DNA of 39,145 nucleotides from Nitrospirota bacterium (GTDB taxonomy: Bacteria; Nitrospirota; JACRHJ01). The DNA lies in NCBI GenBank assembly GCA_021789495.1, contig JAJYJM010000006.1, positions 1 to 39,145 on the forward strand, written 5' to 3'. The translations under genes and the position numbers were made by a program. The notes beneath the pieces are model-generated. The model did not search any database and was not told the origin of the DNA. It saw nothing but the letters and a program-made list of their open reading frames with translations. Of this stretch, positions 23,899 to 38,770 are shown piece after piece. Position 1 is the first letter of the stretch. Every line of letters starts with the position of its first letter.

Positions 23899-24732
23899 TC
23901 AATCGCCGCAACAGTCCCCGCCGCAGTATTCCGGTCTGCCGGAGCCGTCCGGAACGCCCTTCTTTGCAAGCAGTTTTATGCTACGAAGGCCAAGGTCGCT
24001 GACGTTGTCCTTTGTGACAATCCCGCAGCCGCATGTAGTCTCCGCGAGGAAAGAGGCGTCGTCGAGCGAGAGGACGGTAATGTCGTCGAAACCGGCGCGC
24101 CTGACAGCAGCGATGTAGTCGTCGTGTTTGACCGCACCGGAGACGCACCCGGTATACGCCTCGACATTCTCCACGACCGCGCGCGGCAGGTCTTTGGTAA
24201 GCACGATGTCCGACACCATAAGCCGTCCGCCGCCCTTCAGGACGCGAAACGCCTCGGAAAATGTCCTATCCTTGTCCACGGAGAGGTTTATGACACAGTT
24301 GCTTATCACGCAGTCTACGGAAGAATCCGCCACGGGCAGATTTTCCACTTCGCCCTGCCGGAACTCGACGTTCGTGAACTTTCCCTCCCCGGCGTTCTTC
24401 CTTGCGCGCGCGAGCATCTCCGGCGTCATGTCCACGCCTATTACCCTGCCGGAAGGCCCTACCCTGCCTGCGGCCAGGAATACGTCTATCCCCGCGCCTG
24501 AGCCTAAGTCCAGCACCACTTCACCCTCCTTCAGGGAGGCAAGGGCGACAGGGTTGCCGCAGCCGACGCCGAGTATTGCTCCCTCCGGCAGGCTCATGAG
24601 TTCTTTTACGTCATAGCCGATATTTTCCTCGTGCGCGAACTTCGGCTTACTCGAACCGCAGCAGCCTCCGGAGGCGCCTTTTGCGATACCGGAGTAAGTC
24701 TTCTGCACGCTTAATTTTATCTTCCTGTCCAT
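23899..24732 (-). CDS. arsM: Arsenite S-adenosylmethionine methyltransferase
   Basis: From the ATG at 24730-24732 the protein has 277 residues. The Rossmann SAM domain shows VLDLGSGAGIDVFLAAGRVG and VIGVDMTPEMLARARKNA. ArsM hallmarks are present: LGVGCGNPVALASLKEGE, SNCVINLSVDKDRTFSEAFRVLKGGG and YTGCVSGAVKHDDY, which supply the Cys residues expected to bind As(III). An extra Cys pair occurs near the N-terminus (GGCCGSSKP), and the C-terminus ends in a Cys-rich tail (PEYCGGDCCGD). The enzyme methylates arsenite, giving volatile or excretable products. It lies four bases after arsR, with its own GGAGG site, so the two form one arsenic-response operon. Confidence 0.93.
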   Translation of the reverse strand: MDRKIKLSVQKTYSGIAKGASGGCCGSSKPKFAHEENIGYDVKELMSLPEGAILGVGCGNPVALASLKEGEVVLDLGSGAGIDVFLAAGRVGPSGRVIGVDMTPEMLARARKNAGEGKFTNVEFRQGEVENLPVADSSVDCVISNCVINLSVDKDRTFSEAFRVLKGGGRLMVSDIVLTKDLPRAVVENVEAYTGCVSGAVKHDDYIAAVRRAGFDDITVLSLDDASFLAETTCGCGIVTKDNVSDLGLRSIKLLAKKGVPDGSGRPEYCGGDCCGD

Positions 24733-24736
24733 AACG

Positions 24737-25195
24737 TCAAACCTCCGCAGGCCGTCTTTTCGGCGCGGATTTCGTCCCCGCGACGCCCGGTTTGCGGCCT
24801 TTTTTAAGCCTCGTTTTATCGGCTTTCGCCTTTGCCGCCTTTGCGGTTTCCTTTGCCTTCCGCGCAGTCTCCAGGCGCTTTTTGTCGCCGTCGAGTTTCC
24901 TGCCGGTAACCCTCTCAAGTGAAGTCGGGACCAGCACGCGGTTCAGCATGTCGCCCGTGTCGAGCTGGTAAAAGCTCCAGCGCCCCTCGCGCCTGTCTTT
25001 TATGAGTCCCGCTTCCCTGAGTATGCCCAGGTGGAACGAGATATTCGGCTGCGTCATCTCCAGGGCCTCCGTGAGGTCGCACACGCATATCTCGTCTCCA
25101 CAGGAAAGGAGCTTTAATATCCTGAGCCTCGTTTCGTCCGCCATCGCCTTGAATACCGGTATAAGCTTTTCCACTTCCTTGCCCTCCCTTTTCAT
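24737..25195 (-). CDS. arsR: ArsR-family arsenic-responsive repressor with basic tail
   Basis: This 152-residue protein has a winged-helix ArsR domain in residues about 8-95 (PVFKAMADETRLRILKLLSCGDEICVCDLTEALEMTQPNISFHLGILREAGLIKDRREGRWSFY). The As(III) site ICVCDL (Cys-Val-Cys) matches classical ArsR, with a third Cys just before (SCGDE). The last 45 residues are an Ala/Lys/Arg-rich tail (KAKETAKAAKAKADKTRLKK and more), like histone H1 tails, absent from ordinary ArsR of about 100-120 residues. It should repress arsRM until arsenite binds. The promoter at 25263-25291 and a 24-bp palindrome at 25237-25260 fit this model. Confidence 0.92.
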   Translation of the reverse strand: MKREGKEVEKLIPVFKAMADETRLRILKLLSCGDEICVCDLTEALEMTQPNISFHLGILREAGLIKDRREGRWSFYQLDTGDMLNRVLVPTSLERVTGRKLDGDKKRLETARKAKETAKAAKAKADKTRLKKGRKPGVAGTKSAPKRRPAEV

Positions 25196-26421: not shown

Positions 26422-27420
26422 CTATTTCGCTACCCAGCAGTGGGGGTCGGGGGAGTTGAAGTCGCCGGTGGTGGCGTAGGCGCGGGCGGTGCAGCCGCCG
26501 AGGCAGTCCTCGTAGTGCTTGCAGGTGAGGCATTTCTCCTTGGGTTTTTTGTTCCGCATCTTTTCAAGGACATTCGAGTGATCCCAGAGGTCTTTCAGGT
26601 CGTCCGTAAGCAGGTTCCCTATGACAACCGGGATGAAACCGCATGGTGTAACGTCGCCGTTCGCGCGGATATTCAGGGACAGCTTTCCGCATGTGCTCCC
26701 TTTGACAATCGCCTGCTCCGGGGCCTTGTGTATCGTCGCCGTGATGGGGTCGTCCATCGATATTCTTATATCCGTTGCCTTCTCCCTGAGCGCTATGGCC
26801 TTCAGGTAAAATTCCTTCCATTCCGCAGGAGAGAGGTCGAGCTCGTCTTTATTTGTGAAACCCATCCCGGCGCATTTGTAGTTATGCAGCGAAATCTGCT
26901 CCGCGCCGAGGTCTCTCGCCTGGCGCACCAGATCCTCGAACTCCGTGTGGTTAATCCGGCATATGACGGAGGATATTGTAAGGCGCACGCCCTGCTCTTT
27001 TAAGAATTTCGCCGCGCTCACGGCTTTCTTGTGGCTTCCTTTAATGTTGCGGAAGTCGTCGTGCACCTCCGGCCTCGTGCTGTCTATGGATATGCCGACG
27101 GTTTTAAAACCGGATTCCCCGGCAAGGGCCGCCTTCTCCCGGGTCATTAAAAATCCGTTGGTGTTCATGGAGACATTGAAGCCGAGGCATGTCGCGTATG
27201 AGGTCAACTCGAAGAGGTCGCTCCGGAGGAGCGGCTCTCCGCCGCCGTAATTAATAAACGGTACTTTATATTTTGCCACCTTCGCCATTATCTCCTTCAC
27301 CTGCTCCGTCGGCAGCTCGGGCGCTTTTTCCGGCCTGGAGTAGCAGTGGCGGCAGTTAAAATTGCACCTGAAGGTAAGGGTCCAGTTGATTGTTACGGGT
27401 GAAAACGGTATCCTACTCAT
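26422..27420 (-). CDS. Radical SAM/SPASM domain protein
   Basis: From the ATG at 27418-27420 the protein has 332 residues. The N-terminus is TINWTLTFRCNFNCRHCYSRP with the CxxxCxxC cluster, followed by the GGGEPLLRSD and GISIDSTRPEVHDDFRNI motifs of the TIM-barrel. The C-terminal SPASM region has Cys in CGKLSLNIRANGDVTPCGF and CLTCKHYEDCLGGCTARAYATTGDFNSPDPHC, enough for two further [4Fe-4S] clusters. Such proteins modify ribosomal peptides (PqqE, MftC) or heme precursors (AhbD, NirJ); the C-terminal Cys pattern resembles both. It overlaps the PqqD-like gene by eight bases, so a peptide-modifying role is favoured. I recall the GeoRSP family as the closest match; not verified. Confidence 0.88.
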   Translation of the reverse strand: MSRIPFSPVTINWTLTFRCNFNCRHCYSRPEKAPELPTEQVKEIMAKVAKYKVPFINYGGGEPLLRSDLFELTSYATCLGFNVSMNTNGFLMTREKAALAGESGFKTVGISIDSTRPEVHDDFRNIKGSHKKAVSAAKFLKEQGVRLTISSVICRINHTEFEDLVRQARDLGAEQISLHNYKCAGMGFTNKDELDLSPAEWKEFYLKAIALREKATDIRISMDDPITATIHKAPEQAIVKGSTCGKLSLNIRANGDVTPCGFIPVVIGNLLTDDLKDLWDHSNVLEKMRNKKPKEKCLTCKHYEDCLGGCTARAYATTGDFNSPDPHCWVAK

Positions 27421-27724
27421 GAACCAGCCAACCCCTTCCGTCAATATCGATAAGAAAATCCCGGACGTCCATCGAAAGCGTCTCCCTGTCTATGTCGAAG
27501 GTCATGGCGAGGGTATCCACAAGGCGCTCCTCGTCGATACCGTCGAGAAGCTTCCATATCTCGCCGCCGAGGAGGTTAAGCTGGTGCATCATACCTGACT
27601 CCACCAGCAGCACCGTTCCCTCGCCGGATGCGTCGTCGCCGCGTTCCATAGCCCTGAGGGCTTCATCTCTGGCCTCTTCCTCTTCGCGCCAGATTATGTC
27701 CGGGTTCCGCCTAATATTGCGCAT
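27413..27724 (-). CDS. PqqD-like peptide-binding protein
   Basis: This 103-residue protein starts at the ATG 27722-27724, with a GGGAG site. Its last 65 residues match the PqqD/RRE fold (GTVLLVESGMMHQLNLLGGEIWKLLDGIDEERLVDTLAMTFDI and DVRDFLIDIDGRGWLVHE). The first 35 residues are acidic (WREEEEARDEALRAMERGDD) where PqqD normally has a short strand. In RiPP pathways this fold presents the leader peptide to the radical SAM enzyme. It directly precedes the radical SAM gene and overlaps it. I found no obvious precursor peptide gene beside it. Confidence 0.8.
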   Translation of the reverse strand: MRNIRRNPDIIWREEEEARDEALRAMERGDDASGEGTVLLVESGMMHQLNLLGGEIWKLLDGIDEERLVDTLAMTFDIDRETLSMDVRDFLIDIDGRGWLVHE

Positions 27725-27738
27725 TGCAGTCTCCCGCC

Positions 27739-28539
27739 TCAGTTTATCTTTACCCTGGCCGAAAGCGCCGGTTCCGTAATGACCCTGCCGATATAGCTCT
27801 CGCGGTGGCGGTCGAAGAGCTTCGGTCTTTCGTCTCCCCACCAGTTCAGGCGGGCGTCTATATCTCCGGCCTGACCTTCGCCGAGCTTTATGTCGTAGTC
27901 CCTGTTTCCCTGGAAGTTATTATATTTGATCCTTGCGCCCTCGCATCCCTGGCGCCAGAATATCCCGGTGCTGTCGTCCGTTATATCGCTGTTGTGGATA
28001 TACGGCGCGCCCTTCCAGTAGCGCATACCAATCTGCATACCCTTGAGGACGCAGCCTGCAATCTCGACTCTGCCGCCCTTTCCGCGGATGCCTCCGAAGC
28101 TGTTGCGCATGAAGGTGCAGTCCGAAATCTTTATCTTCGTATGATGGATATGAAGTCCCCAGCCTCCGTAGCGGAAGTCGCAGTCCGCAAAGGAGCTCCC
28201 CTTGCTCCTTATAATCTGTATCTCTCCCCAGTCTCCCGGCCTGGGCCTTTGCGCCGCCGAGGTAAATCTTATCCTCGCGCCGGGCAGGCCGTCCGCTATT
28301 ATCGTCCCAAGTATCAGCATCCCGCACTGCGCAAGCCCGGTATCGTCCTGCTTCGCCGGGACGAACTTAACGACTGTCCCAGGCTCGATTTTGAGGGTCA
28401 CTCCGGGCTTCACCAATAACCGGCCTGACACCTTTACCGTCCCGGTCCAGACGGCGTCAGTCCTGAGCGTAGCGGCGAAGGCCTGCGCGGAAAACAATAC
28501 GGCGACAATAACGACCGGTAAGATTGCAATTTTTTTCAT
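27739..28539 (-). CDS. Secreted right-handed beta-helix protein (paralog 1)
   Basis: This 266-residue protein starts with a signal peptide (MKKIAILPVVIVAVLFSAQAFA). The mature part begins with a cap (VWTGTVKVSGRLLVKPGVTLKIEPGTVVKFVP) shared with the three other paralogs, then PRPGDWGEIQIIRSKG and short beta-strand coils such as IKISDCTFMRNSFGGIRGKGGRVEIAGC, as in NosD/CASH-type helices. It ends with ARLNWWGDERPKLF, the Asn-Trp-Trp-Gly motif common to the family. It overlaps paralog 2 by four bases (ATGA) upstream and precedes the PqqD-like gene by 14 bases. The function is unknown; NosD relatives help metal delivery, others bind carbohydrate. Confidence 0.85.
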   Translation of the reverse strand: MKKIAILPVVIVAVLFSAQAFAATLRTDAVWTGTVKVSGRLLVKPGVTLKIEPGTVVKFVPAKQDDTGLAQCGMLILGTIIADGLPGARIRFTSAAQRPRPGDWGEIQIIRSKGSSFADCDFRYGGWGLHIHHTKIKISDCTFMRNSFGGIRGKGGRVEIAGCVLKGMQIGMRYWKGAPYIHNSDITDDSTGIFWRQGCEGARIKYNNFQGNRDYDIKLGEGQAGDIDARLNWWGDERPKLFDRHRESYIGRVITEPALSARVKIN

Positions 28540-29534
28540 TTAACCGTGCCGGGCACTTTTGTTTTGAGGAACGGCCTGAAATTGACCAGCCCAAGGCTGT
28601 CGTCCGTTCTTTTATCGTAAAACTTTGCCTTGATCTTCAAAGGGTCGGTGGTGCCCCACCAGTTGTTTGAGGCGTCAACGTCCACCGGGGTCTCCACGGC
28701 CAGCGCGATATTGTATTCCTTGTTGTATGCAATGTTGTTTAAGTGTATCTTGAGCGGCGCCGCCCTGAAAAGGAAAACGCCCTTGCCGTTTTTCTCTATG
28801 TCGTTGTAGGCGATTCTGCCTTTATCGCCCTCGTGCAGCCAGATTCCATAGAACTTGTTGTTCGATATGTCGTTGTGGAGGATTGTTATCATGGCGTACC
28901 TTGCGGAAATGCCGGAGAGGTTGCCCACGATTGTGTTGTCCTCTATGTCCATTACGCAGGTGTTGTTGAAATTCGCCTTTATAAACGAAAGCGCCGTCCC
29001 GTTGTCATGGAATATGCACTTCGTAACCTTCGCATGGGAGGCGTGGTTGTGTATGCCGTTGTAGGCGTAGGATATACGGCAGTATTTGAACACGTCGCCG
29101 TTCGAGCCCAGGAGGTTTACCGCTCCCCATATGCCGGGATGCGGAGCCGGGTCCGCGGAAGTGAAGATTATCGGCCTGTCCTTCGTGCCAACGGCGATTA
29201 TCCTTCCCCGAATGATTATCTCCGCGCCCGGGAAGTACGGGATTCCGGGGCCGCCGATGCTGAACATGTTCCTCCCGCCCTGGGACTCCAGTTTCGGCGC
29301 AATCGTGTCGAACCTTATTACTGTCCCCGGCTTTATGGTGAGCGTAACTCCTTTCTTAACGTACACGTCGCCGGTTATCCTTATCCGGCCTTCCCACGTC
29401 GTATCCTTGACCATGGTATACAGTCCGAGTTTAGTCTCCCTTAACTCGGATTTCGTAATCGGCTTTACCTCAGCGCACGACGCAAGACCGGACAGCATAA
29501 CCAGAAGAATCGATGAAAATAATATCTTTTTCAA
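28536..29534 (-). CDS. Beta-helix lipoprotein (paralog 2)
   Basis: From the TTG at 29532-29534 the protein has 332 residues. The start is preferred because an AAGGAGG site lies 6 bases before it and it yields a lipoprotein signal (MKKILFSSILLVMLSGLASC, Cys20). The cap TTWEGRIRITGDVYVKKGVTLTIKPGTVIRF and IIFTSADPAPHPGIWGAVNLLG match the other paralogs. About ten beta-helix coils follow (DIEDNTIVGNLSGISAR, ILHNDISNNKFYGIWLHEG, RIAYNDIEKNGKGVFLF), closing with DASNNWWGTTDPLKIK. Anchoring to a membrane makes it the probable hub of the group. It sits between a small TPR gene and paralog 1. Confidence 0.86.
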   Translation of the reverse strand: MKKILFSSILLVMLSGLASCAEVKPITKSELRETKLGLYTMVKDTTWEGRIRITGDVYVKKGVTLTIKPGTVIRFDTIAPKLESQGGRNMFSIGGPGIPYFPGAEIIIRGRIIAVGTKDRPIIFTSADPAPHPGIWGAVNLLGSNGDVFKYCRISYAYNGIHNHASHAKVTKCIFHDNGTALSFIKANFNNTCVMDIEDNTIVGNLSGISARYAMITILHNDISNNKFYGIWLHEGDKGRIAYNDIEKNGKGVFLFRAAPLKIHLNNIAYNKEYNIALAVETPVDVDASNNWWGTTDPLKIKAKFYDKRTDDSLGLVNFRPFLKTKVPGTVK

Positions 29535-29545
29535 TAATAGCCTCC

Positions 29546-29941
29546 TTATTTTTTCGCCTTCAACAAAGCCTTTTCCGCCATAAACCGCTGTCTGCAACCA
29601 TTGTCGTTCTTTATCTTTAGCGCCCTTTCGTACCAGGCCGCCGCCTGCGAAGGATCTCCAAGCCTGCTTTCCACAATCCCAAGGCTGTCCAACGCGTCGA
29701 AATTCCTTGCATCGATTTTCAATATATCAAGGAACTGCGCGCGCGCCTTATCCAGTTTGTTCTGCCGGAGATAGACCATCCCAAGCTTGTTGCGGGTCAG
29801 CGTGTCGCTCGGCTGCATGCTGATGATCATCTGATATTCCATAACCGCGACCGAATCCGGCAGAAGCTCGCCCGTGTAATGCGCGAATGCCGGAACAGGC
29901 GCCAAAATCAAAATAAAAAACAGCGCAAGAATTAATTTCAT
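29546..29941 (-). CDS. Small exported TPR protein
   Basis: This 131-residue protein has a signal peptide (MKLILALFFILILAPVPAFA), followed by three TPR units: about SVAVMEYQMIISMQPSDTLT, RNKLGMVYLRQNKLDKARA and ALDSLGIVESRLGDPSQAAAWYERALKI. I chose the ATG at 29939-29941; a TTG one codon upstream is possible. It probably acts as a periplasmic adaptor for the beta-helix proteins around it. It lies 27 bases after paralog 3 and 11 before the start of paralog 2. Confidence 0.82.
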   Translation of the reverse strand: MKLILALFFILILAPVPAFAHYTGELLPDSVAVMEYQMIISMQPSDTLTRNKLGMVYLRQNKLDKARAQFLDILKIDARNFDALDSLGIVESRLGDPSQAAAWYERALKIKNDNGCRQRFMAEKALLKAKK

Positions 29942-29968
29942 CAAGACCCTATATCAATCCCTGTTTAT

Positions 29969-31084
29969 TTATTCCTGTCCGCCGGCGGCAGAAACGACAG
30001 GTTCGATTTTAAAGGGCCGGTTCGCCTGAGGGAGCATGGTCACCTTCCCCAGGGCAGCATCCTTGCCTTTGTCGTATAAAAGCTTCGCCGGGTCCACCCT
30101 GTAGGGAGGCCCGAACCAGTTCCCGGTCGCATCCACGTCCTTTTTGCCGCCGTTGTCTATCGCCCAGACGCCGTTTGCCCGTATGTTGTTTCCGGCTATT
30201 TTCACGTCCGAATCCGTGATGGATATCCCGGTATAGCCGTTCCCGGTAATCTGGTTGCCGGTAACGGCGCCATTCGAGCGTTTAAGGTATAGTCCGCTTT
30301 CGTAGTTGTCCGCCAGCACGTTGCCGGTTATCTCAACCTGCGATTTGTCCGCCGAAATCCCCTTCCTGTTATCGCGCAGGATATTGCCGGACACCTTGAC
30401 CTTCGTCTCGCTGAACGTAATCCCGTTTATGAGGTTGCCGGCCAGCATATTGCCGGTAATCTCCGCCCTGCCGTACAGGAACCTTATCCCCCAGAGATTA
30501 TCGTGTATGTTGCAGTTTTTAATTTTGAGCCTGGAGTCCCTGAAAACTATTGCCCCGCATTTATTATCGTTTATCTCGCAGCGCTCGACGTCGAGATCCG
30601 AGTCCTGGCATTGAATGCCCATGTAATTGTGCCTGAGCTTTGAATCGGTTATGGAGGCCTTCGAGAAATGCATGTGAAAGCCGCGATAACCATACTCGAT
30701 TATGCAGTGGGAGAGCCTGTTTATCCTGCCCTGGCTCACCATGATATTCACCGCGCCCCAGTCCCCCGGCCTCTTGATTTTTTCAGCCGAAGTGAACACT
30801 ATCGGTTTATCCGCAGTCCCCTTTGCGACAAGCCTGCCCTGGATGTATATCTCGTTCTCGCCGATGCCGTCGCCGTCCGCGTCGTTTCTTGTGAACTCGA
30901 CTTTTGTCCCCGGCAGGACCGTAAGGGTCGCCTTCGGCCCGAACTGAATCACTCCGTCGATTATAACCGTCCCGCTCCAGGTTTGGTCGATATTATACGT
31001 CTGGTCGTGCAGGCGCAGGATGCCGCCGCTTGCGAATGCAACACCGGGAAATATCAAAATCAGTATAAATAAAACTTTATTCAT
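29969..31084 (-). CDS. Secreted right-handed beta-helix protein (paralog 3)
   Basis: At 371 residues this is the longest of the four. A signal peptide (MNKVLFILILIFPGVAFA) is followed by TWSGTVIIDGVIQFGPKATLTVLPGTKVEF, IVFTSAEKIKRPGDWGAVNI and about a dozen very regular coils: RNYMGIQCQDSDLDVERCEI-like, KIKNCNIHDNLWGIRFLYGRAEITGNMLAGNLINGITFSETKVKVSGNILRDNRKGIS. Each coil is 22-23 residues with Asn/Gly turns, as in NosD. It ends DATGNWFGPPYRVDPAKLLYDKG. It lies 19 bases after the NicO transporter gene. No catalytic motif of pectate lyases or other beta-helix enzymes is apparent. Confidence 0.86.
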   Translation of the reverse strand: MNKVLFILILIFPGVAFASGGILRLHDQTYNIDQTWSGTVIIDGVIQFGPKATLTVLPGTKVEFTRNDADGDGIGENEIYIQGRLVAKGTADKPIVFTSAEKIKRPGDWGAVNIMVSQGRINRLSHCIIEYGYRGFHMHFSKASITDSKLRHNYMGIQCQDSDLDVERCEINDNKCGAIVFRDSRLKIKNCNIHDNLWGIRFLYGRAEITGNMLAGNLINGITFSETKVKVSGNILRDNRKGISADKSQVEITGNVLADNYESGLYLKRSNGAVTGNQITGNGYTGISITDSDVKIAGNNIRANGVWAIDNGGKKDVDATGNWFGPPYRVDPAKLLYDKGKDAALGKVTMLPQANRPFKIEPVVSAAGGQE

Positions 31085-31103
31085 AATCGCGGGTGCGGTT
31101 TCT

Positions 31104-31970
31104 TTAAATTACATGCATTATCGAGCCGTATAGGGTAGCAACGCCGATAAGCGTTACAAGCACGGCGCTCGCAAGCGATATGTACGGCGCCGCCTTTTCC
31201 ATGTCCATGAACCTGCCGGCAAATCCTGCCGTCTTGACAACGCCTACGCCGATGGCAATCAGCGCAAATGCCAGGCCGAGCGAGAAGACTATCACGAGGC
31301 TCAAGCCTTTGGCAACGGCGCCTGCGGAAACCGCCGCGAGAAGAAGTGCAAATGCAGCGGGACAGGGCACTATGCCGCCCGATATGCCGAGCAGGAAAAG
31401 TTTCCATAACGAGGGTTCCTCGCCCGGCCCCGGCGCGTAATGGGTATGGGAAAACCCTCCGTGGGAATGCGTATGATGATGGTCATGCTCATGCTCATGG
31501 TCATGGCCGACATGCAGATGAGAATGTTCATCGTGTATGTGCTCGTGCGGGAGTTCGTGTTCATGTTCGTGGTCATGATCGTGGGAATGGTCGTCGTGCC
31601 CATGTCCGTGATTGTGATGTCTGAGTCTTTGCAGGGCCCCGAAACGCTTCCATATCATGGAGATGCCGACGCCAAGGATAAGCGCCGCCGCGACAAAACC
31701 GAGATAAATATGCAGTTGCAGGCCGGTGAACCTTTCCGCGAAAAACCTCGCCAGTACCGCCAGGACTATGATGCTGAAGGTATGCGTGAAGGTTACGATA
31801 ATGCCGAGCAGAAACGCCTCGTAAACCTTTGCTTTCGAGCCGACAAGATATGCCGCGACGACCGTTTTCCCGTGCCCGGGTTCAAGCGCGTGGAATGCGC
31901 CCAGGATAAACGCCGCGATATAAAACCCGGTCAAGCCGCTGCCCTGCAAGTTGCTTAAGAAATCCTGCAT
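31104..31970 (-). CDS. NicO/RcnA-family metal transporter with His-rich loop
   Basis: The protein has 288 residues and six or seven transmembrane segments. The NicO signature GAFHALEPGHGKTVVAAYLVGSKAK is at residues 24-48, and a second conserved segment GGIVPCPAAFALLLAAVSAG follows the loop. The loop after the third segment carries 28 His residues in about 60, with Asp/Glu, as in RcnA nickel/cobalt efflux proteins. It probably exports Ni2+ or Co2+, though other divalent metals fit. It overlaps the stop of paralog 4 (TAATG) and is followed by paralog 3, so its place among periplasmic helix proteins is unusual. Confidence 0.88.
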   Translation of the reverse strand: MQDFLSNLQGSGLTGFYIAAFILGAFHALEPGHGKTVVAAYLVGSKAKVYEAFLLGIIVTFTHTFSIIVLAVLARFFAERFTGLQLHIYLGFVAAALILGVGISMIWKRFGALQRLRHHNHGHGHDDHSHDHDHEHEHELPHEHIHDEHSHLHVGHDHEHEHDHHHTHSHGGFSHTHYAPGPGEEPSLWKLFLLGISGGIVPCPAAFALLLAAVSAGAVAKGLSLVIVFSLGLAFALIAIGVGVVKTAGFAGRFMDMEKAAPYISLASAVLVTLIGVATLYGSIMHVI

Positions 31971-32638
31971 TATAGCCTCGTAATAAAATCCACTTTGTTA
32001 TTCGCCACCTTCGTATGATCAATTCCCGCTTCGGATCCCTTCCCAGACAACACCCCGAAGTCGTTCCCGGCAATGTCGCAGGAGTATACCATGGGCCATG
32101 ATTCGCCGAGGCATACGACCCCGTAATTGCCGCCCGTGAGGTCGCAGAAATTAAAGACGGGCGAGGAATTTATTGTCGTAATCGCCGAATCCGCAAAGCT
32201 TATGGAAGCATGAGAGACAACGCTGTCGGACGAGTCGGGGCCGTCGAATATCAGGCCGGCCCAGCAGCCCTTTTTGGGGTTTATCCTGTTTCCGTCCTCG
32301 TCTTTGCCTGCGGAGCCGAAGATTATCGGCTCTTTCTCCGTGCCCTTCGCCAGGAGTTTGCCCCGGACAAGCAGCTCGGTCTGCATGGAAAGATACAAGG
32401 GTTCGATCTTCGAGCTCTCGCTTGATACGAACAGGACTTTTGTGCCCGGATCTATCTTCAGCGTTACGCCGTCCGGCACAAGCACGTCGCCTGTCACCAG
32501 CACCGTCCCGGACCATTCGGCGCTCTTTTTTATCACGCCCTCCACCTGTTTTGGCCCATCACCGCCCAGGGCGCGCGAGGAGATAATAAGGGCAAGAATA
32601 AAGCCGATTGTAAAAAATTTAATGGGTTTCATCCGCAT
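31970..32638 (-). CDS. Exported beta-helix-like protein (paralog 4)
   Basis: From the ATG at 32636-32638 the protein has 222 residues; the ATG at 32632 is an equal candidate. The N-terminus has a signal peptide (MKPIKFFTIGFILALIISSRALGG). The cap AEWSGTVLVTGDVLVPDGVTLKIDPGTKVLF and LLAKGTEKEPIIFGSAGKDEDG match the other three paralogs. The C-terminal half is a short beta-helix (ASISFADSAITTINSSPVFNFCDLTGGNYGVVCLG) lacking the NWWG end, so it is the shortest and possibly truncated version. It shares the TAATG overlap with the NicO gene and follows the response-regulator gene by 24 bases. Confidence 0.82.
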   Translation of the reverse strand: MRMKPIKFFTIGFILALIISSRALGGDGPKQVEGVIKKSAEWSGTVLVTGDVLVPDGVTLKIDPGTKVLFVSSESSKIEPLYLSMQTELLVRGKLLAKGTEKEPIIFGSAGKDEDGNRINPKKGCWAGLIFDGPDSSDSVVSHASISFADSAITTINSSPVFNFCDLTGGNYGVVCLGESWPMVYSCDIAGNDFGVLSGKGSEAGIDHTKVANNKVDFITRL

Positions 32639-32662
32639 TTGATTAAAATGCAATTTCCGTTC

Positions 32663-34048
32663 CTACTCAGAGAGTTCCGCCGATACAAGCCCGTATTTTT
32701 CCAGTTTATACCGAAGCGTGCTGCGTTTAAGGCCCAGGGCCGCCGCCGCCGCGGTCTGCGAGCCGCCCTTTTCCTTCAGGGCCTTGACAATAAGTTGTCT
32801 TTCCAGTTCCTCCAGGACGTCCGTCAAGGTCCCGCCGCCTTCCGGAAGCTTTACAACGTCCGCGTCCTCGGCCTCATGGCGCAGGGAAAGAGGCAGGCTC
32901 GAAGGGGTAATAGTCTCGCTCTTTTCGAGCACCACCGCGCGCTCGATTATGTTCTCCAGTTCCCGGACGTTTCCGGGCCAGTCGTAGCGCGTCAGCATGT
33001 CCATCGCGGCGGGTTCTATGCCCTCCACTTTCTTGCCCGTCTCCCCGGAAAACTTAAAAAGAAAGTGCTCCGCAAGGCCTGGAATATCGTCTTTTCTTTC
33101 CCTGAGCGGCGGGATGCTTATGTTTACGACGTTCAGGCGGTAGTACAGGTCTTCCCGGAAACGCCCCTCCTTTACGGCCTCCATGAGGTCTTTGTTTGTT
33201 GCGGCTATAATCCGCACGTCCACCTTTATCGTCTTTTCTCCGCCGACCCGCTCGAACTCGTGCTCCTGTAAGACCCTCAGGAGCTTAAGCTGCGTCGATA
33301 CCGGTATCTCGCCTATCTCGTCCAGAAAAATCGTCCCCTCGTCCGCAAGTTCAAAACGCCCGGCCTTTCGCTTTATCGCTCCCGTAAATGCGCCCTTTTC
33401 GTGGCCGAAAAGCTCGGATTCCAGGACTCCTTCGGCGAGCGCGGCGCAGTTAAGTATCACGAGCGGCTTGCCTTTCCGCCTGCTGTTGTAATGTATGGAG
33501 CGGGCCACGAGCTCCTTGCCGGTGCCGGATTCGCCCTGTATCAGGACGCTGGCGTTCGTCGCCGCCACCTGGCTCACAAGTTCGTAGACCTCTTCCATTT
33601 TGCGGCTTTTGCCCACGATGCCGGTAAAGCGGTATTGTTCCTCCAGCTCCTTGTGAAGCTCCCGGTTCTCTCTTATCAGTCGTTCGCGTTCCAGAGCCTT
33701 CCCGACGACGTGCTTTATCTCTTCCATCTCGAAGGGCTTGCTCAAGTAATCGTACGCCCCAAGGCGCATTGCCTCCACGGCGGACTGTAGCGAGCCGTAT
33801 GCGGTTATCATCACGACGGAGAGGGAGGGATCTTTTATCTTGATTTTCTTTAAAAGCTCAATGCCGTTCATGGACGGCATCTCGATGTCGAGGATTGCAA
33901 GGTCGTAGTCTTCCGAGTTCATGGATTCGATCGCGTCGGCCCCCTTCTCGAACGCGTTAACGGAATATCCGCTCTTGGCCAGCACCCGGCCAAGCAGGCT
34001 CCGCATCCCAGGCTCGTCATCTACAACCAGTATCCTCTCGTCCGGCAT
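32663..34048 (-). CDS. NtrC-family sigma54-dependent response regulator
   Basis: The 461-residue protein has a receiver domain (phospho-acceptor Asp in LAILDIEMPSMNG, near residue 54; VVMITAYGSLQSAVEAM), a central sigma54 activation AAA domain (Walker A GESGTGKE; GHEKGAFTGAIKRKAG with the sigma54-contact GAFTGA loop; FLDEIGEIP) and a Fis-type DNA-binding helix-turn-helix at the end (SQTAAAAALGLKRSTLRYKLEKYG). It activates sigma54 promoters after phosphorylation, probably by the kinase encoded just upstream. A separate promoter (34154-34182) also lies before it. I see no -24/-12 site in the gaps of this cluster, so its targets may be elsewhere. Confidence 0.94.
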   Translation of the reverse strand: MPDERILVVDDEPGMRSLLGRVLAKSGYSVNAFEKGADAIESMNSEDYDLAILDIEMPSMNGIELLKKIKIKDPSLSVVMITAYGSLQSAVEAMRLGAYDYLSKPFEMEEIKHVVGKALERERLIRENRELHKELEEQYRFTGIVGKSRKMEEVYELVSQVAATNASVLIQGESGTGKELVARSIHYNSRRKGKPLVILNCAALAEGVLESELFGHEKGAFTGAIKRKAGRFELADEGTIFLDEIGEIPVSTQLKLLRVLQEHEFERVGGEKTIKVDVRIIAATNKDLMEAVKEGRFREDLYYRLNVVNISIPPLRERKDDIPGLAEHFLFKFSGETGKKVEGIEPAAMDMLTRYDWPGNVRELENIIERAVVLEKSETITPSSLPLSLRHEAEDADVVKLPEGGGTLTDVLEELERQLIVKALKEKGGSQTAAAAALGLKRSTLRYKLEKYGLVSAELSE

Positions 34049-34153: not shown

Positions 34154-34182
34154 ATTATATTTCAATTCCGGGCTATGCTCAA
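34154..34182 (-). promoter_or_regulatory. Sigma70-type promoter of the response-regulator gene
   Basis: On the minus strand TTGAGC (34177-34182), a 17-base spacer and a perfect TATAAT (34154-34159) are present. The -35 box overlaps the end of the kinase gene. The leader to the regulator start is about 100 bases long. Confidence 0.65.
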
Positions 34183-35717
34183 GAAATTTCGGGTTTCCCG
34201 GATGTCCCGGCGGCGGCTATACCGGTCTTCAGCTCGTCCGGGAGTGAAACGGTGAATGTCGCGCCTGCTCCGGGGGCGCTTTCCACCCACACCTTGCCTC
34301 CATGCTCCTCCAGGAGCCTGACACATATCGGAAGCCCCAGCCCTGTTCCCTCGCCCGGGCGTTTGGTGGTGTAGAAAGGGTCAAAAATCCTTCCCATGTT
34401 TTCAAGGCTTATCCCGGGGCCGGTATCGCTGAAAGATATCCGCACCTCCCCGGCTGTCTCTTCATGCCTGAGTTTTATGTCTATATTACCCCCATCCGGC
34501 ATCGCCTGGGCGGAATTTATCATGAGGTTCATAAATACCTGCCTGAGCCTGTCCGGGTCAGCCATTATCTTCGGGACGGGTGAAGTATCAAGGTTTATCT
34601 TTACGTCCCGAAAAAGCCGCTGCGTCTTTGCGGCCTCGACCGTCTGGCCCAGCGACTCCGTGAGGTCGGTCGGCGCGACTCCGAGGGCCGGAGGGCGCGA
34701 GAAATCGAGCAGCCCCCTGACAATGCGCTTGCAGCGCCTGCTCTCGTCCAGTATCCTGGTAAGGTCTTCGCGTCTTGGGTCGCCGGGAGGCGCGTCTTCC
34801 AGCAAAAGCTCCGCAAAGCCCATTATCACACCGATGGGGTTGTCTATCTCGTGGGAAAGCCCCGCCGCAAGCTGGCCCACCGCGGCCATCCTCTCGGAAC
34901 GCACAAGTTCCGTCTGCAGAAGCCTAAGCTCCTCGTTTGCGGCAACCAGGCTCCCGTTGGCCTCTTCCAGATCCCGCCTGTGTCCCTTCAGCGCACTCGC
35001 CATGGAATTAAACGACCGTCCAAGTTCGCCAAGCTCGTCCTCGCGGTCAAGTTCCACCACCTGGTCGAGGTCGCCTCCCTCTATCGCGCGGGCGCTCTCC
35101 TTCAGGGCGAGTATCGGGTTTATAAGCTTGGCTGCGAAGACTGCCGCCGTAACCACACCCACGAACATGAAAATAACGGTCAGAAGCAGGAACTGCTTCC
35201 TGATGCCTACAAGCCTCTGTTTAAGTGAGTGGTAGGATATTATATACCTGACCTTCAGAAACTGCGGCCCGCCGTTTTCTGCGGCGGGAGCCAGAATGTC
35301 AATGTATTCCTGGCCGTCCGGCCCGTAGTATTTTTTTACGTCGATGGTATTCAGGGGCAGCCTCTCGGAGAGCGACCGGTCGGTAACGGGCATATGCCCC
35401 GGAGTGCCGCCCGAATCCCAGAGTATAAGCCCGGACTGGCTGATAATCGTGAGCCGGACAAGGTCGGGATAGTATCTGAAGAACTTCAGCATCTGCGTCC
35501 GGACGTCCTGTTTTCCGCCGGATTCCCATGACAGCGAACCGTAGGTATGGACGACTTCCGTGGCGGTAAGCCTGGCGAAAAGCTTTCCCTGCTCCACAAG
35601 CTGTTTTTTGCTGTCGGCCTTCTCGGTATGGAGCATGACAGCCGCGTTTATCCCGATTATCGCGACAACCAGGCAGGATGCGAACGTTATTACCTTGGTC
35701 CTGAGGCCGAAGTGCAT
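34179..35717 (-). CDS. Two-component sensor histidine kinase
   Basis: The 512-residue protein has an N-terminal membrane segment (residues about 8-28), a periplasmic sensor region of about 130 residues, a second membrane segment (QFLLLTVIFMFVGVVTAAVFAAKL), a HAMP linker (INPILALKESARAIEGGDL ... ELGRSFNSMASAL), a HisKA domain with H-box GLSHEIDNPIGVIMGF, and a HATPase domain with N box MINSAQAMPDGG and G boxes DTGPGIS and GTGLGLPI. It autophosphorylates on His and passes phosphate to the NtrC-type regulator downstream. Its ATG overlaps the ResB stop by one base (TGATG). The signal sensed is unknown. Confidence 0.94.
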   Translation of the reverse strand: MHFGLRTKVITFASCLVVAIIGINAAVMLHTEKADSKKQLVEQGKLFARLTATEVVHTYGSLSWESGGKQDVRTQMLKFFRYYPDLVRLTIISQSGLILWDSGGTPGHMPVTDRSLSERLPLNTIDVKKYYGPDGQEYIDILAPAAENGGPQFLKVRYIISYHSLKQRLVGIRKQFLLLTVIFMFVGVVTAAVFAAKLINPILALKESARAIEGGDLDQVVELDREDELGELGRSFNSMASALKGHRRDLEEANGSLVAANEELRLLQTELVRSERMAAVGQLAAGLSHEIDNPIGVIMGFAELLLEDAPPGDPRREDLTRILDESRRCKRIVRGLLDFSRPPALGVAPTDLTESLGQTVEAAKTQRLFRDVKINLDTSPVPKIMADPDRLRQVFMNLMINSAQAMPDGGNIDIKLRHEETAGEVRISFSDTGPGISLENMGRIFDPFYTTKRPGEGTGLGLPICVRLLEEHGGKVWVESAPGAGATFTVSLPDELKTGIAAAGTSGKPEIS

Positions 35718-37027
35718 CAGACCGGCTCCACTTCCTGCATAAAGCTCTTGATTATCCCGCCGTATTCACGCATGAAGCCCTGCATGTCCTTGTTGGAAGT
35801 CCCGCCTATGAATATCCGCCCGTCCTCGACGGTTATCCATATCTGCCTGTGATAAAAGAAAAACGAGAGGAACAATCCCGCCATGAGAAGAATAAATCCG
35901 GCCCAGACGACCGGGACCCCCGGATCCTCAACCAATTGGAAACCGGAATAATATCTGCCGAGCGCATCGCGGGCGTACGACGTCAGGTATACGGTCATGC
36001 CGTCGTATTCCATCGGGTTGTTTATCTCGATTACGGCCCGCTTCGCATCCATCCCGTTCTTCACAATCCGGACGCTGCTCGCTATGTTCTTAAGTATCGG
36101 CCCGTTGAAAGATCCCACGGTAAAGATATACCCCAGACTCGGTGGGGCGGCGAGTCCGCCGTCGGGCGCGCCGGTATTGTAGGAGCCCAGAAAGTTTTCC
36201 CCGTCGTAGATGTCAAGAACGGCCTCGCGGCTCTCCATATCGACATTCTTCGGCTTTATCTTCAGCTTCGTGCCGGGTATGGAGAAGAACTTCCCTTCCA
36301 TAGCGCTGAACGTACCGAGCATGGCGCCGGTATTGCCGTCCCGCACGTTGACCTTCATCTCCACCGGGTAATGTTCCAGCGTGAATTTATCCACATAAAG
36401 CCTGAAATTCAGAGGCCTTTCTTTTCCCGCGCTCCAGTCGTAGAATCTGTCCGCGTAATCACCTTGATAAATATTGACCGTGCCCACCATCCCCATGCTG
36501 CCGATAAGGCCGCCAAGGAGCACAAGCAGGATGCTCGCATGTGTTATCATGTCTCCCCAGGGACCGAGCTTCCCCTTGAAGCCGTAAATACAGTGCCCGC
36601 GCTTGATTACGCTGTATTTTCTGTCCTTAAGCGAGCGTTCAAGTATATCCGCCCCGGACGTTACGGGCAGTTCGTTATGTATCCTGAGATTTTTTATGTC
36701 GTTGCCGGTTTTTTCGGCATTTGGCCTGAGCGTCCTTTGCATAAGCCTTTTAAACCTGCCCATGCTGCACACCACCAGGTTCAGGGCAAGCATGGCCATA
36801 ATCGCGCGGAAGCCCCAGGAGTGATAGAGGTCTATTACGCCAAGGAGTTTCAGGTATTTGTAATCGAGTACGCCGTATTTGCCGATATAAAAAGACGGCT
36901 CCTGCCCCTGCGGCAGAAATGTCCCGAAAACGGACACCGCCGCAAGCATGATGAGCAGGAATACCGCCAGGCGAAGCGAAGAAAAAAACCTCCTCCCCGC
37001 GCCCCATATGCGGGTTATGGGTTTCAT
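35717..37027 (-). CDS. ResB-family cytochrome c biogenesis protein
   Basis: The 436-residue protein has four membrane segments: FFSSLRLAVFLLIMLAAVSVFGTFLPQG, SWGFRAIMAMLALNLVVCSMGRFK, MITHASILLVLLGGLIGSMGMVGTVN and a last one (VVWAGFILLMAGLFLSFFF). A large extracytoplasmic domain spans about residues 180-370. This is the ResB (Ccs1) layout; ResB acts with a ResC/CcsA-type heme handler to attach heme to c-type cytochromes. No CcsA/ResC gene is present here. Its ATG directly abuts the stop of the lipoprotein gene before it and it overlaps the kinase gene, so it sits inside the operon. Confidence 0.93.
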   Translation of the reverse strand: MKPITRIWGAGRRFFSSLRLAVFLLIMLAAVSVFGTFLPQGQEPSFYIGKYGVLDYKYLKLLGVIDLYHSWGFRAIMAMLALNLVVCSMGRFKRLMQRTLRPNAEKTGNDIKNLRIHNELPVTSGADILERSLKDRKYSVIKRGHCIYGFKGKLGPWGDMITHASILLVLLGGLIGSMGMVGTVNIYQGDYADRFYDWSAGKERPLNFRLYVDKFTLEHYPVEMKVNVRDGNTGAMLGTFSAMEGKFFSIPGTKLKIKPKNVDMESREAVLDIYDGENFLGSYNTGAPDGGLAAPPSLGYIFTVGSFNGPILKNIASSVRIVKNGMDAKRAVIEINNPMEYDGMTVYLTSYARDALGRYYSGFQLVEDPGVPVVWAGFILLMAGLFLSFFFYHRQIWITVEDGRIFIGGTSNKDMQGFMREYGGIIKSFMQEVEPV

Positions 37028-37780
37028 CTATCTCTCATCCGAAAACCTGCCAAGCCTTATATTTATCCCGTCCGTGAAAGCGCCGTCCCTGACTGTCACG
37101 GAGTGGTCGCGGCTTCCCCTGTATTTCCCGTAAGGCTCATCCGGCCCCGGCGCGCCCATCAGGCCGGTGCGAGCGCCGATATAATATTTTCCGGGCTTGT
37201 CCACATATATCACGAACTTCCCGTCCTTCCTGCTCCACCCGGAGACAAAATCCGGCCTGCCCACCATCCTTCCGTCCTTGTACGCAAAGGCATACGCCTG
37301 TTTGAACGGCCTCCCGCTCCTGTCCATTATCACGCCGCGTATGCCCTGCCGCCCGACGCTGCCGGAGAAGAGCATATTGCCGGAAAAAACATACAGGGAG
37401 AGATCCATCTTGTAGGTCTTTCCCTGTTCGATTTTCATCCGGACTGCGTCCGGGGTGTATAAATCTCCCTTTTTGAGGTTCCCGGAAATGCTCCCGGACA
37501 TGCGCTTCCTGGCAACGACATAATACTTTCCCGGAGGCACCTCCGTGTAATATCTGCCGTCCGGCCCCGTCGGTTCCGCCATGAAATCAGCCGGGCTTCT
37601 GAACTTGCGCTCGGAACTGACATAGAAATAAACCTCGGCGTCCTTCAGGGGCTTTCCGGCCTCGTCCGTAAGCCGGCCTTCCACAACCCCCGGACGAATA
37701 TTTCCATAGAAATCATTCTTGTGCGCGCAGGCGGAAACGAGAAGTAAAACCACGGCTGCCGGGAACAGATATTTTTTCAT
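37028..37780 (-). CDS. Carboxypeptidase-regulatory-like (Ig-fold) lipoprotein
   Basis: From the ATG at 37778-37780 the protein has 250 residues. It has a lipoprotein signal (MKKYLFPAAVVLLLVSAC, Cys18) and two Ig-like carboxypeptidase-regulatory repeats: VVEGRLTDEAGKPLKDAEVYFYV ... DGRYYTEVPPGKYYVVARKR and GIRGVIMDRSGRPFKQAYAFAYK ... DGKFVIYVDKPGKYYIGAR. Such folds bind partner proteins or surface polymers. An AAGGGG ribosome site precedes the start. A strong hairpin with U-tract ends the HEAT gene only 20 bases before this start. It is the first gene of the ResB-kinase run. Confidence 0.88.
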   Translation of the reverse strand: MKKYLFPAAVVLLLVSACAHKNDFYGNIRPGVVEGRLTDEAGKPLKDAEVYFYVSSERKFRSPADFMAEPTGPDGRYYTEVPPGKYYVVARKRMSGSISGNLKKGDLYTPDAVRMKIEQGKTYKMDLSLYVFSGNMLFSGSVGRQGIRGVIMDRSGRPFKQAYAFAYKDGRMVGRPDFVSGWSRKDGKFVIYVDKPGKYYIGARTGLMGAPGPDEPYGKYRGSRDHSVTVRDGAFTDGINIRLGRFSDER

Positions 37781-37800
37781 ATTTCCCCTTGAGGCTTGCA

Positions 37801-37836
37801 AAAAGAGGCAGATGGAACCTCCCCCACCTGCCTCCG
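37801..37836 (-). terminator. Rho-independent terminator (or attenuator) after the HEAT lipoprotein gene
   Basis: On the minus strand GAGGCAGGTGG pairs with CCATCTGCCTC (11 bp with one G-U pair) around an eight-base loop and is followed by five U residues (37801-37805). It lies 26 bases past the HEAT stop and about 20 bases before the next start codon. Confidence 0.75.
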
Positions 37837-37861: not shown

Positions 37862-38770
37862 TTACCTGTAGAGGTTATAGGGAAAGACCATGACGCCATT
37901 TTCGTTTTTGTACTTGTATTTCCTGCCGGTAATGTTTTCAAGTGCCCTCGCGCACCACTGCCGCACATAGGAATCCTTGTCTGTCTTCATCATCGCCGTC
38001 AGCATGGGGATCGCAGCCTTCGCGCCCAATTGTCCCAGTGAAATCGAGGCGTTAACCTTTGTCGTAACGTCTCTGGAATCCAGGGTTTTGATGAGCGGCG
38101 GTATGGATTTTCCAGTCCCTACACTCCCAAGAGCGAGCGCCGCGACCTCCGTGACCCCGCTATTTTTATCGTTTAGGAGCCCTATAATCGGCTCCTCGGC
38201 CCGCTTGTCCTCTATCTCCCCGAGCGCCCTGATTGAGAACTCTCGCGTATCCGTATCGGGGCTTTTGAGGGCCGCAATAAGCGCGGGCACGGCATCCGGC
38301 CCCAAGTTAATCAGCGCGCGCGTGGCCTCCTTCCGGATTGCGTCGTTCTTCACGGACAGGGCGTCTACGAGCGGCCCTATAGCCTGTTTTGCCCTCATCA
38401 TTCCCAGCGCCCAGGCCGCTATATATCGCCTCCGCCTGTGCCCCTGGAGCATCGCGATGAGTGGTTTTACCGCCCGTTTATCGCCGATGGAGCCGAGAAT
38501 CGCGGCGGCATATTCGCGCATGTCCGGGTCGTCGCTGTTTAAGAGCTTCAGCAGTTTCGGAACCGCAGGTTCGCCTATCTCTATAAGTCTCTTGTACGCC
38601 ATGTCCCTCTGGGGACGCGGGGATTTCAACTGCTCTATCAGCAGGTCAACCGTCTTTGTGTTCGTCGGCAGTCCCTGAATCCGGCTGCCGGTAAGCACGG
38701 TTCTTTGCGTAGAGCAGGCAGAGAAAGAGAGCAGGAACAACGCAAGGAAAATCGGCAGGGTTTTCTTCAT
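37862..38770 (-). CDS. HEAT-repeat lipoprotein
   Basis: The 302-residue protein has a lipoprotein signal (MKKTLPIFLALFLLSFSAC, Cys19). The rest consists of about eight HEAT repeats with regular helices, such as AVPKLLKLLNSDDPDMREYAAAILGSIGDKRAVKPLIAML and KSIPPLIKTLDSRDVTTKVNASISLGQLGAKAAIPML. The last 20 residues are basic and aromatic (ITGRKYKYKNENGVMVFPYN). HEAT repeats of this type act as scaffolds; related proteins are often found with cytochrome or phycobilin lyases, which fits ResB next door. A GGAGG site lies before the ATG, a possible promoter at 38796-38825, and a terminator after it. Confidence 0.9.
   Translation of the reverse strand: MKKTLPIFLALFLLSFSACSTQRTVLTGSRIQGLPTNTKTVDLLIEQLKSPRPQRDMAYKRLIEIGEPAVPKLLKLLNSDDPDMREYAAAILGSIGDKRAVKPLIAMLQGHRRRRYIAAWALGMMRAKQAIGPLVDALSVKNDAIRKEATRALINLGPDAVPALIAALKSPDTDTREFSIRALGEIEDKRAEEPIIGLLNDKNSGVTEVAALALGSVGTGKSIPPLIKTLDSRDVTTKVNASISLGQLGAKAAIPMLTAMMKTDKDSYVRQWCARALENITGRKYKYKNENGVMVFPYNLYR

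Follow-up and report, generated by a model that had tools for sequence, protein, structure and literature searches.

Pairs of a small PqqD-type protein and a SPASM-type radical S-adenosylmethionine (SAM) enzyme are known from several described systems. In the pyrroloquinoline quinone (PQQ) system (PqqA/PqqD/PqqE) a tiny precursor with a Glu-x3-Tyr core is served by a PqqD-type recognition domain and a SPASM radical SAM enzyme in a periplasmic redox context, and mycofactocin (MftA/B/C) likewise combines a PqqD-like protein and a SPASM radical SAM enzyme with a small precursor. A further set is named GeoRSP in NCBIfam, where the chaperone (TIGR04302) and radical SAM/SPASM enzyme (TIGR04303) families are labelled as function-unknown; we found no published work on GeoRSP among open-licence papers, and with it no substrate or function. 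Here we describe a GeoRSP-type block in the Nitrospirota bacterium assembly GCA_021789495.1 (contig JAJYJM010000006.1, positions 1 to 39,145 of the forward strand; this whole stretch of 39,145 nucleotides is called the window below), together with a short peptide ending in His-Pro-Cys (HPC), encoded elsewhere in the same genome, which is probably the substrate of the enzyme pair. The enzyme families are those already named as GeoRSP; what is new is the peptide as a precursor candidate.

The enzyme pair among its relatives

The radical SAM enzyme scores 461.1 bits against TIGR04303 (cut-off 400) and its PqqD-like partner 101.7 bits against TIGR04302 (cut-off 100, a narrow margin). Hence the preliminary description of this DNA, which was made from the sequence alone and spoke of an undescribed system, went too far as regards the enzyme pair. 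The second SPASM protein of GeoRSP (TIGR04304) gives no match above 300 bits in the window's genome, which is 97% complete, the best score (55.9 bits) being that of the radical SAM protein itself, and we therefore file the block as a GeoRSP variant rather than a full member. The enzyme is present in all 5 searched genomes of the window's genus, and its CxxxCxxC motif and seven SPASM cysteines are kept in 13 of 14 orthologs, up to the phylum level; the fourteenth ends at a contig edge before the last SPASM cysteine. Its nearest solved structures are PqqE (6c8v) and SkfB, and the nearest PDB structure to the PqqD-like protein is TbiB1 (5v1u), which binds a lasso-peptide leader. The gene for the latter protein very probably starts at 27724 rather than at 27841, since the resulting length fits that of its relatives (102-110 amino acids).

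A comparison with the described systems showed that: 1) The block shares with GeoRSP the PqqD-family chaperone and the radical SAM/SPASM enzyme and differs in the absence of the TIGR04304 protein; judged by their names, the three families do not cover the precursor candidate or its context of genes for beta-helix proteins, exported carboxypeptidase-regulatory-like domain proteins (CpReg), YedE and cytochromes. 2) With PQQ it has in common the tiny precursor, the PqqD-type recognition domain, the SPASM radical SAM enzyme and the periplasmic redox context, but the PqqE and PqqD profiles give 143.8 and 27.2 bits against cut-offs of 381 and 46, no other PQQ genes were seen in the cluster, and the candidate precursor ends in HPC and lacks the Glu-x3-Tyr core. 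3) Mycofactocin uses the same kind of enzyme pair and a small precursor, but the radical SAM enzyme scores 172.9 bits against a maturase cut-off of 265, and precursor and neighborhood are different. 4) Like the leaders of lasso peptides, which carry YxxPx[LVI] and are bound by a B1 protein with a recognition element (RRE) for ribosomally synthesized and post-translationally modified peptides (RiPPs), the peptide has an invariant YxxPx[VI], and the PqqD-like protein is nearest in the PDB to TbiB1; instead of a lasso cyclase or a B2 protease, neither of which was identified, there is a radical SAM enzyme. 5) As in the NosD/NosDFYL copper-delivery system, the envelope beta-helices carry a His motif and the larger cluster encodes a polyferredoxin and a ResB-like protein; unlike that system, the locus has several beta-helix paralogs, these stay far below the cut-off of the NosD family (TIGR04247; 19.3 and 22.4 bits against 300), and NosF, NosY and NosL were not identified.

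After GeoRSP, the best-scoring families for the radical SAM enzyme are AhbD (heme b synthase, 196 bits) and NirJ2 (183 bits), and multiheme cytochromes adjoin some copies of the peptide gene. The enzyme could accordingly be imagined to act, like AhbD or NirJ, on heme or another tetrapyrrole destined for multiheme cytochromes, the peptide being incidental. We regard this as highly improbable: both scores lie far under the cut-offs of 500 bits, the enzyme has a dedicated PqqD partner, and the co-occurrence of the peptide with the enzyme speaks against a tetrapyrrole substrate.

A short peptide that tracks the enzyme

Small open reading frames (ORFs) were compared across 80 named loci from Nitrospirota and Desulfuromonadia. 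This revealed one family of 18-20 codons in 28 of the loci, frequently placed between the genes for the radical SAM and SPASM proteins, which encodes a peptide of 17-20 amino acids with the consensus MKKxKYVKPRVVGSSNVHPC. A DNA pattern for PxVVGxxxVHPC followed by a stop codon recovered the peptide in 74 of 77 genomes with the GeoRSP enzyme and in 4 of 414 others; the reversed pattern, used as a control, had no match in the 491 genomes. The association is seen in Nitrospirota (16/16 GeoRSP-positive against 2/280 GeoRSP-negative genomes; Fisher p 1e-24) and in the Geobacter class (58/61 against 2/134; p 3e-43), where a one-residue variant missed by the pattern, in locus L074, adds a 59th genome. 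The peptide is present in 46 of the 50 genomes behind the named loci, and also in 30 of the 31 GeoRSP-positive Geobacter-class genomes outside these 50, at most one of which (behind L052) possibly contributed to the discovery loci.

The ORF exists and is coding: a Shine-Dalgarno sequence is found at 76 of 78 peptide sites, third codon positions are the most variable, and the serine at position -7 is drawn from both of its codon boxes. An origin of the conserved stretch as a riboswitch or other RNA was rejected, with no Rfam family nearby in 20 loci and a codon pattern that is that of coding sequence. The two peptides that were scanned against NCBIfam had no match there. Two copies are present in the window's genome, MRKIKYSKPQVVGSSSVHPC (GTG start; contig C52, about 29277-29339, minus strand) and MKIKYTAPKVVASSSVHPC (contig C8, about 931-990, plus strand), both conserved in a sister species; neither strict nor loose patterns detected a copy in the window itself or elsewhere on its contig. 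Among 59 distinct peptides the tyrosine at position -15, which lies outside the search pattern, is invariant and completes a YxxP motif that is extended, again without exception, to YxxPx[VI]. Lasso RREs bind leaders through YxxP (PMC13381572), and PqqD-type RREs are among the groups that bind W/Y/LxxP (PMC12710340).

The co-occurrence with the enzyme and the YxxP motif together make it probable that the peptide is the substrate of the PqqD-radical SAM pair and that the system serves the envelope. By its sequence the peptide has the expected features of a RiPP precursor, namely small size and a putative RRE-binding leader; in the window's genome co-occurrence alone links it to the enzyme. We propose that PqqD binds the YxxP leader and presents the few residues at the C-terminus, among them the invariant final HPC, to the radical SAM/SPASM enzyme for modification. 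The mature peptide would be exported, or would act in the periplasm alongside the exported proteins encoded with it; its envelope partners may include a scaffold of the beta-helix proteins bh1, bh2 and bh4 and the CpReg proteins, as well as giant multiheme cytochromes encoded elsewhere in the genome. On this view a GeoRSP-type system for peptide modification stands at the center of a large, conserved cluster of envelope genes, and the block in the window would be the maturation end of that cluster.

Several observations weigh against this proposal. The peptide genes of Geobacter and of the canonical Nitrospirota loci are found near or before CpReg or bh2 rather than beside PqqD, and in the window's genus they are unlinked to the enzyme and come after a histidine kinase-NtrC gene pair. 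Together with the missing second SPASM protein, this unlinked position means that the reaction in the window's genus may differ or be reduced. The count of 74/77 is partly non-independent of the discovery loci. Two genomes, G364 (40 kb around the locus read) and G332, have the enzyme and no peptide by the patterns used, and four have the peptide without a detected enzyme. Neither a protease nor a dedicated exporter for the peptide was identified. The scattered copies, their separation from the enzyme in the window's genus and the four peptide-only genomes would also fit a small peptide that works independently in regulation or signalling and whose co-occurrence with the enzyme reflects only the common lifestyle of these bacteria. 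This we consider very improbable, as two of the four genomes (G013 and G083) are fragmented or incomplete assemblies, like many of those surveyed, in Desulfuromonas-type loci the peptide genes come directly after the radical SAM gene and adjoin the radical SAM/SPASM genes, and the YxxP motif counts against it.

The conserved cluster and its beta-helix proteins

All genes of the preliminary description were recovered on the minus strand where it had placed them and in the families that it had named (Table 1; Pfam and NCBIfam), including the stop/start overlaps at bh3/bh4, bh1/NicO and PqqD/radical SAM. The start of bh1 is probably at 32632, and the true start of bh3 may lie downstream of the TTG at 29597. 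The ResB family was assigned to the short ResB-like protein through a Pfam ResB match in one relative.

Table 1. Genes of the GeoRSP-type block and its flank in the window.
Feature	Coordinates	Strand	Evidence
Radical SAM/SPASM enzyme, GeoRSP-type, 340 aa	26422..27444	-	TIGR04303; Radical_SAM and SPASM Pfam
PqqD, GeoRSP-type peptide chaperone (RRE domain), 103 aa	27413..27724	-	TIGR04302; start probable
bh4, beta-helix protein, 266 aa, signal peptide, conserved His132 of HxH	27739..28539	-	Beta_helix Pfam
bh3, beta-helix protein, at most 353 aa, exported, Cys near signal end, invariant HxH	28536..29597	-	Beta_helix and NosD Pfam
Small exported TPR protein, partner of NicO in relatives	29546..29944	-	TPR Pfam; adjoins NicO in relatives
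bh2, beta-helix protein, 371 aa, invariant RGFHxHF	29969..31084	-	Pfam; AlphaFold2
NicO-family permease, 28 His in one loop	31104..31970	-	PF03824, 86.5 bits
bh1, exported beta-helix protein, probable start 32632	31970..32653	-	Homology to bh2-bh4; AlphaFold2
NtrC-type sigma-54 response regulator	32663..34048	-	Synteny in genus loci L033 and L034
Membrane sensor histidine kinase	34179..35717	-	Synteny in L033 and L034
ResB-like membrane protein, also in GeoRSP loci of other families	35717..37027	-	Matches short ResB of relatives
CpReg, exported carboxypeptidase-regulatory-like domain protein	37028..37801	-	PF13620; common to most GeoRSP loci
HEAT-repeat lipoprotein, also in Desulfuromonas-type loci	37862..38770	-	Pfam HEAT_2

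On the same strand the cluster continues beyond the window for about 22 kb (C34, about 38001-60500; L123 and L124), with genes for a PhnD-like protein, a TPR protein, YedE, a cysteine desulfurase-like protein, a Se/S carrier, an AAA ATPase, OpuAC and a polyferredoxin, and further for four CpReg, two FG-GAP and three more beta-helix proteins and a DUF362 Tat protein. A requirement for selenium metabolism, an idea taken from the YedE family, was ruled out because the window's genome holds YedE but no selD above the cut-off. The open-licence literature on SaoE, or on YedE with SPASM enzymes, gave nothing useful, and Geobacteraceae genome papers gave nothing on the cluster. At 23899-25195 the window also has, by reading and without a profile check, an arsenite-methyltransferase-like gene preceded by a gene for an ArsR-like regulator.

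We annotated the 80 loci with profiles built from the cluster. Among the 57 fully flanked loci, those with at least 9.5 kb upstream, 53 carry beta-helix genes, 46 CpReg, 47 YedE, 48 a PhnD-like and 45 an OpuAC-like gene, and 661 of 670 annotated genes share the strand of the enzyme. With a profile of bh2 orthologs (E 1e-30), 18 of 296 Nitrospirota genomes were matched, namely all 16 that are GeoRSP-positive and 2 of the 280 others (G013 and G062), in both of which the cluster is cut by a contig edge immediately ahead of the PqqD and radical SAM genes. The suggestion that these genes form one envelope system is thereby borne out: the block recurs in Nitrospirota and Desulfuromonadia, the radical SAM/PqqD pair does not regularly occur apart from beta-helix genes, and among the Nitrospirota sampled, members of the beta-helix family are restricted to GeoRSP genomes rather than found mainly in unrelated contexts. 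The 53/57 loci and the 16/16 against 2/280 genomes rule out random pairing of beta-helix proteins and enzyme, and the block is a single conserved system.

The four beta-helix proteins are mutually homologous (pairwise BLASTP E 1e-12 to 1e-31). Pfam recognizes Beta_helix in bh2, bh3 and bh4, with no match for bh1, and AlphaFold2 models, which the preliminary description had asked for, are beta-helices both for bh2 (right-handed; predicted local distance difference test score, pLDDT, 91.6; predicted template modeling score 0.87) and for bh1 (pLDDT 88.3). The cap W(S/T/E)G(T/R)...TLxIxPGTxVxF that had been noticed is indeed present in all four (ATLTVLPGTKVEF in bh2), and NW(W/F)G occurs near the C-terminus of bh2, bh3 and bh4 and is lacking in bh1. 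In all 28 large beta-helix proteins of relatives the N-terminal part corresponds to bh1, the middle to bh2 and the C-terminal third to bh4, so that each is a bh1-bh2-bh4 fusion in the order of the window's split genes; orthologs of bh3 were found in NicO-type loci.

That the enzyme pair modifies these exported proteins themselves had been one suggestion, in keeping with the position of the beta-helix genes as its immediate neighbors in the window and with the strong genome-wide co-occurrence of family and enzyme. It is now the weaker reading, and in our view improbable, because a separate peptide of 17-20 amino acids, bearing a motif of the kind that PqqD-type domains recognize, follows the enzyme from genome to genome as tightly as the beta-helices do. 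Moreover, the enzyme loci L071, L107, L114 and that of genome G385 have no beta-helix gene nearby, and both G385 and G263, the genome that holds L114, have the peptide; alignments of beta-helix N-termini, inspected without a systematic test, revealed no common YxxP leader. The locus of G385 (C1:2046420; L220) reads OpuAC-PqqD-radical SAM-SPASM, the 20 kb read being free of beta-helix genes, and the peptide is encoded elsewhere in the genome.

A metal-handling system, in line with the earlier suggestion that a metal exporter may load the beta-helices, would be compatible with the peptide being the substrate: NicO or ArsP would export a metal or metalloid, the HxH beta-helices would bind it in the manner of NosD, and the modified HPC peptide would be a metallophore or ligand. 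As a hint only, HxH is invariant in bh2 and bh3 (the last His is also invariant in bh4; bh1 has no HxH). The NicO protein (PF03824 cut-off 27.7 bits; 140 bits against a cut-off of 195 for the RcnA subfamily PRK10019) has, as had been described, exactly 28 His within one stretch of 75 residues, out of 33 in the whole protein. The same slot holds an ArsP-type permease in 31 loci, with a cupin gene in nearly all of them, and NicO with the TPR protein and bh3 in 11 loci, never both, and the cupin adjoining ArsP has a conserved His; the peptide itself ends in His and Cys, and Foldseek with bh2 retrieves NosD (7osf). However, the epimerases AlgE4 and AlgG outscore NosD in that search, the scores against the NosD family lie below its cut-off, no NosFY-type ABC genes were seen, and 18 Desulfuromonas-type loci have no NicO or ArsP permease in the stretch read. 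On balance we hold this reading to be rather unlikely.

Peptide gene contexts and implications

At 16 of 77 peptide sites the peptide gene comes after a multiheme cytochrome gene, most of these cytochromes ending in WNxxT(P/Q/N)W. One of the two copies in the window's genome follows a giant multiheme cytochrome, whose counterpart in the sister species has 2900 amino acids and 24 CxxCH, with CxxxxCH/CxxCH domains. A WNxxT(P/Q)W C-terminal tail is common to giant multiheme cytochromes near peptide genes at L174:952-9654, L134:12480-19352 and L133:13131-18200. In two of these loci giant repeat proteins of 2452-2816 amino acids lie between cytochrome and peptide (L134:3930-12380, L133:5797-13155), one with delta-60 repeats, and end in a short Cys-containing tail. 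In the window's genus a 6S RNA gene is found about 7 kb downstream of the cytochrome-linked peptide (L172:7978-8156, L174:16858-17037). A single genome, G263 (contigs C29, C15 and C44; L175 and others), has 15 peptide copies; in the copies read, the core is varied by an additional Cys (VCVHPC or similar), and most of these copies adjoin CpReg genes.

Most likely the peptide would act as a redox or metal-binding cofactor, or as an anchor, within an outer-surface electron-transfer apparatus; we put forward an electron-transfer function tentatively. More specifically, and more doubtfully, PqqD and the radical SAM/SPASM enzyme might turn the genome-dispersed HPC peptides into a new peptide-derived cofactor for redox or metal chemistry, which, along with the beta-helix scaffolds, would become part of an extracellular electron-transfer apparatus; in Nitrospirota and the relatives of Geobacter this apparatus would consist of giant multiheme cytochromes.

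A gene of 20 codons can go unnoticed, and the family library that was scanned has no model for this one. A peptide that tracks the enzyme makes the question of the GeoRSP substrate directly testable. If the link to the cytochromes is true, peptide maturation would join the parts of outer-surface electron transfer in metal- and sulfur-cycling bacteria.

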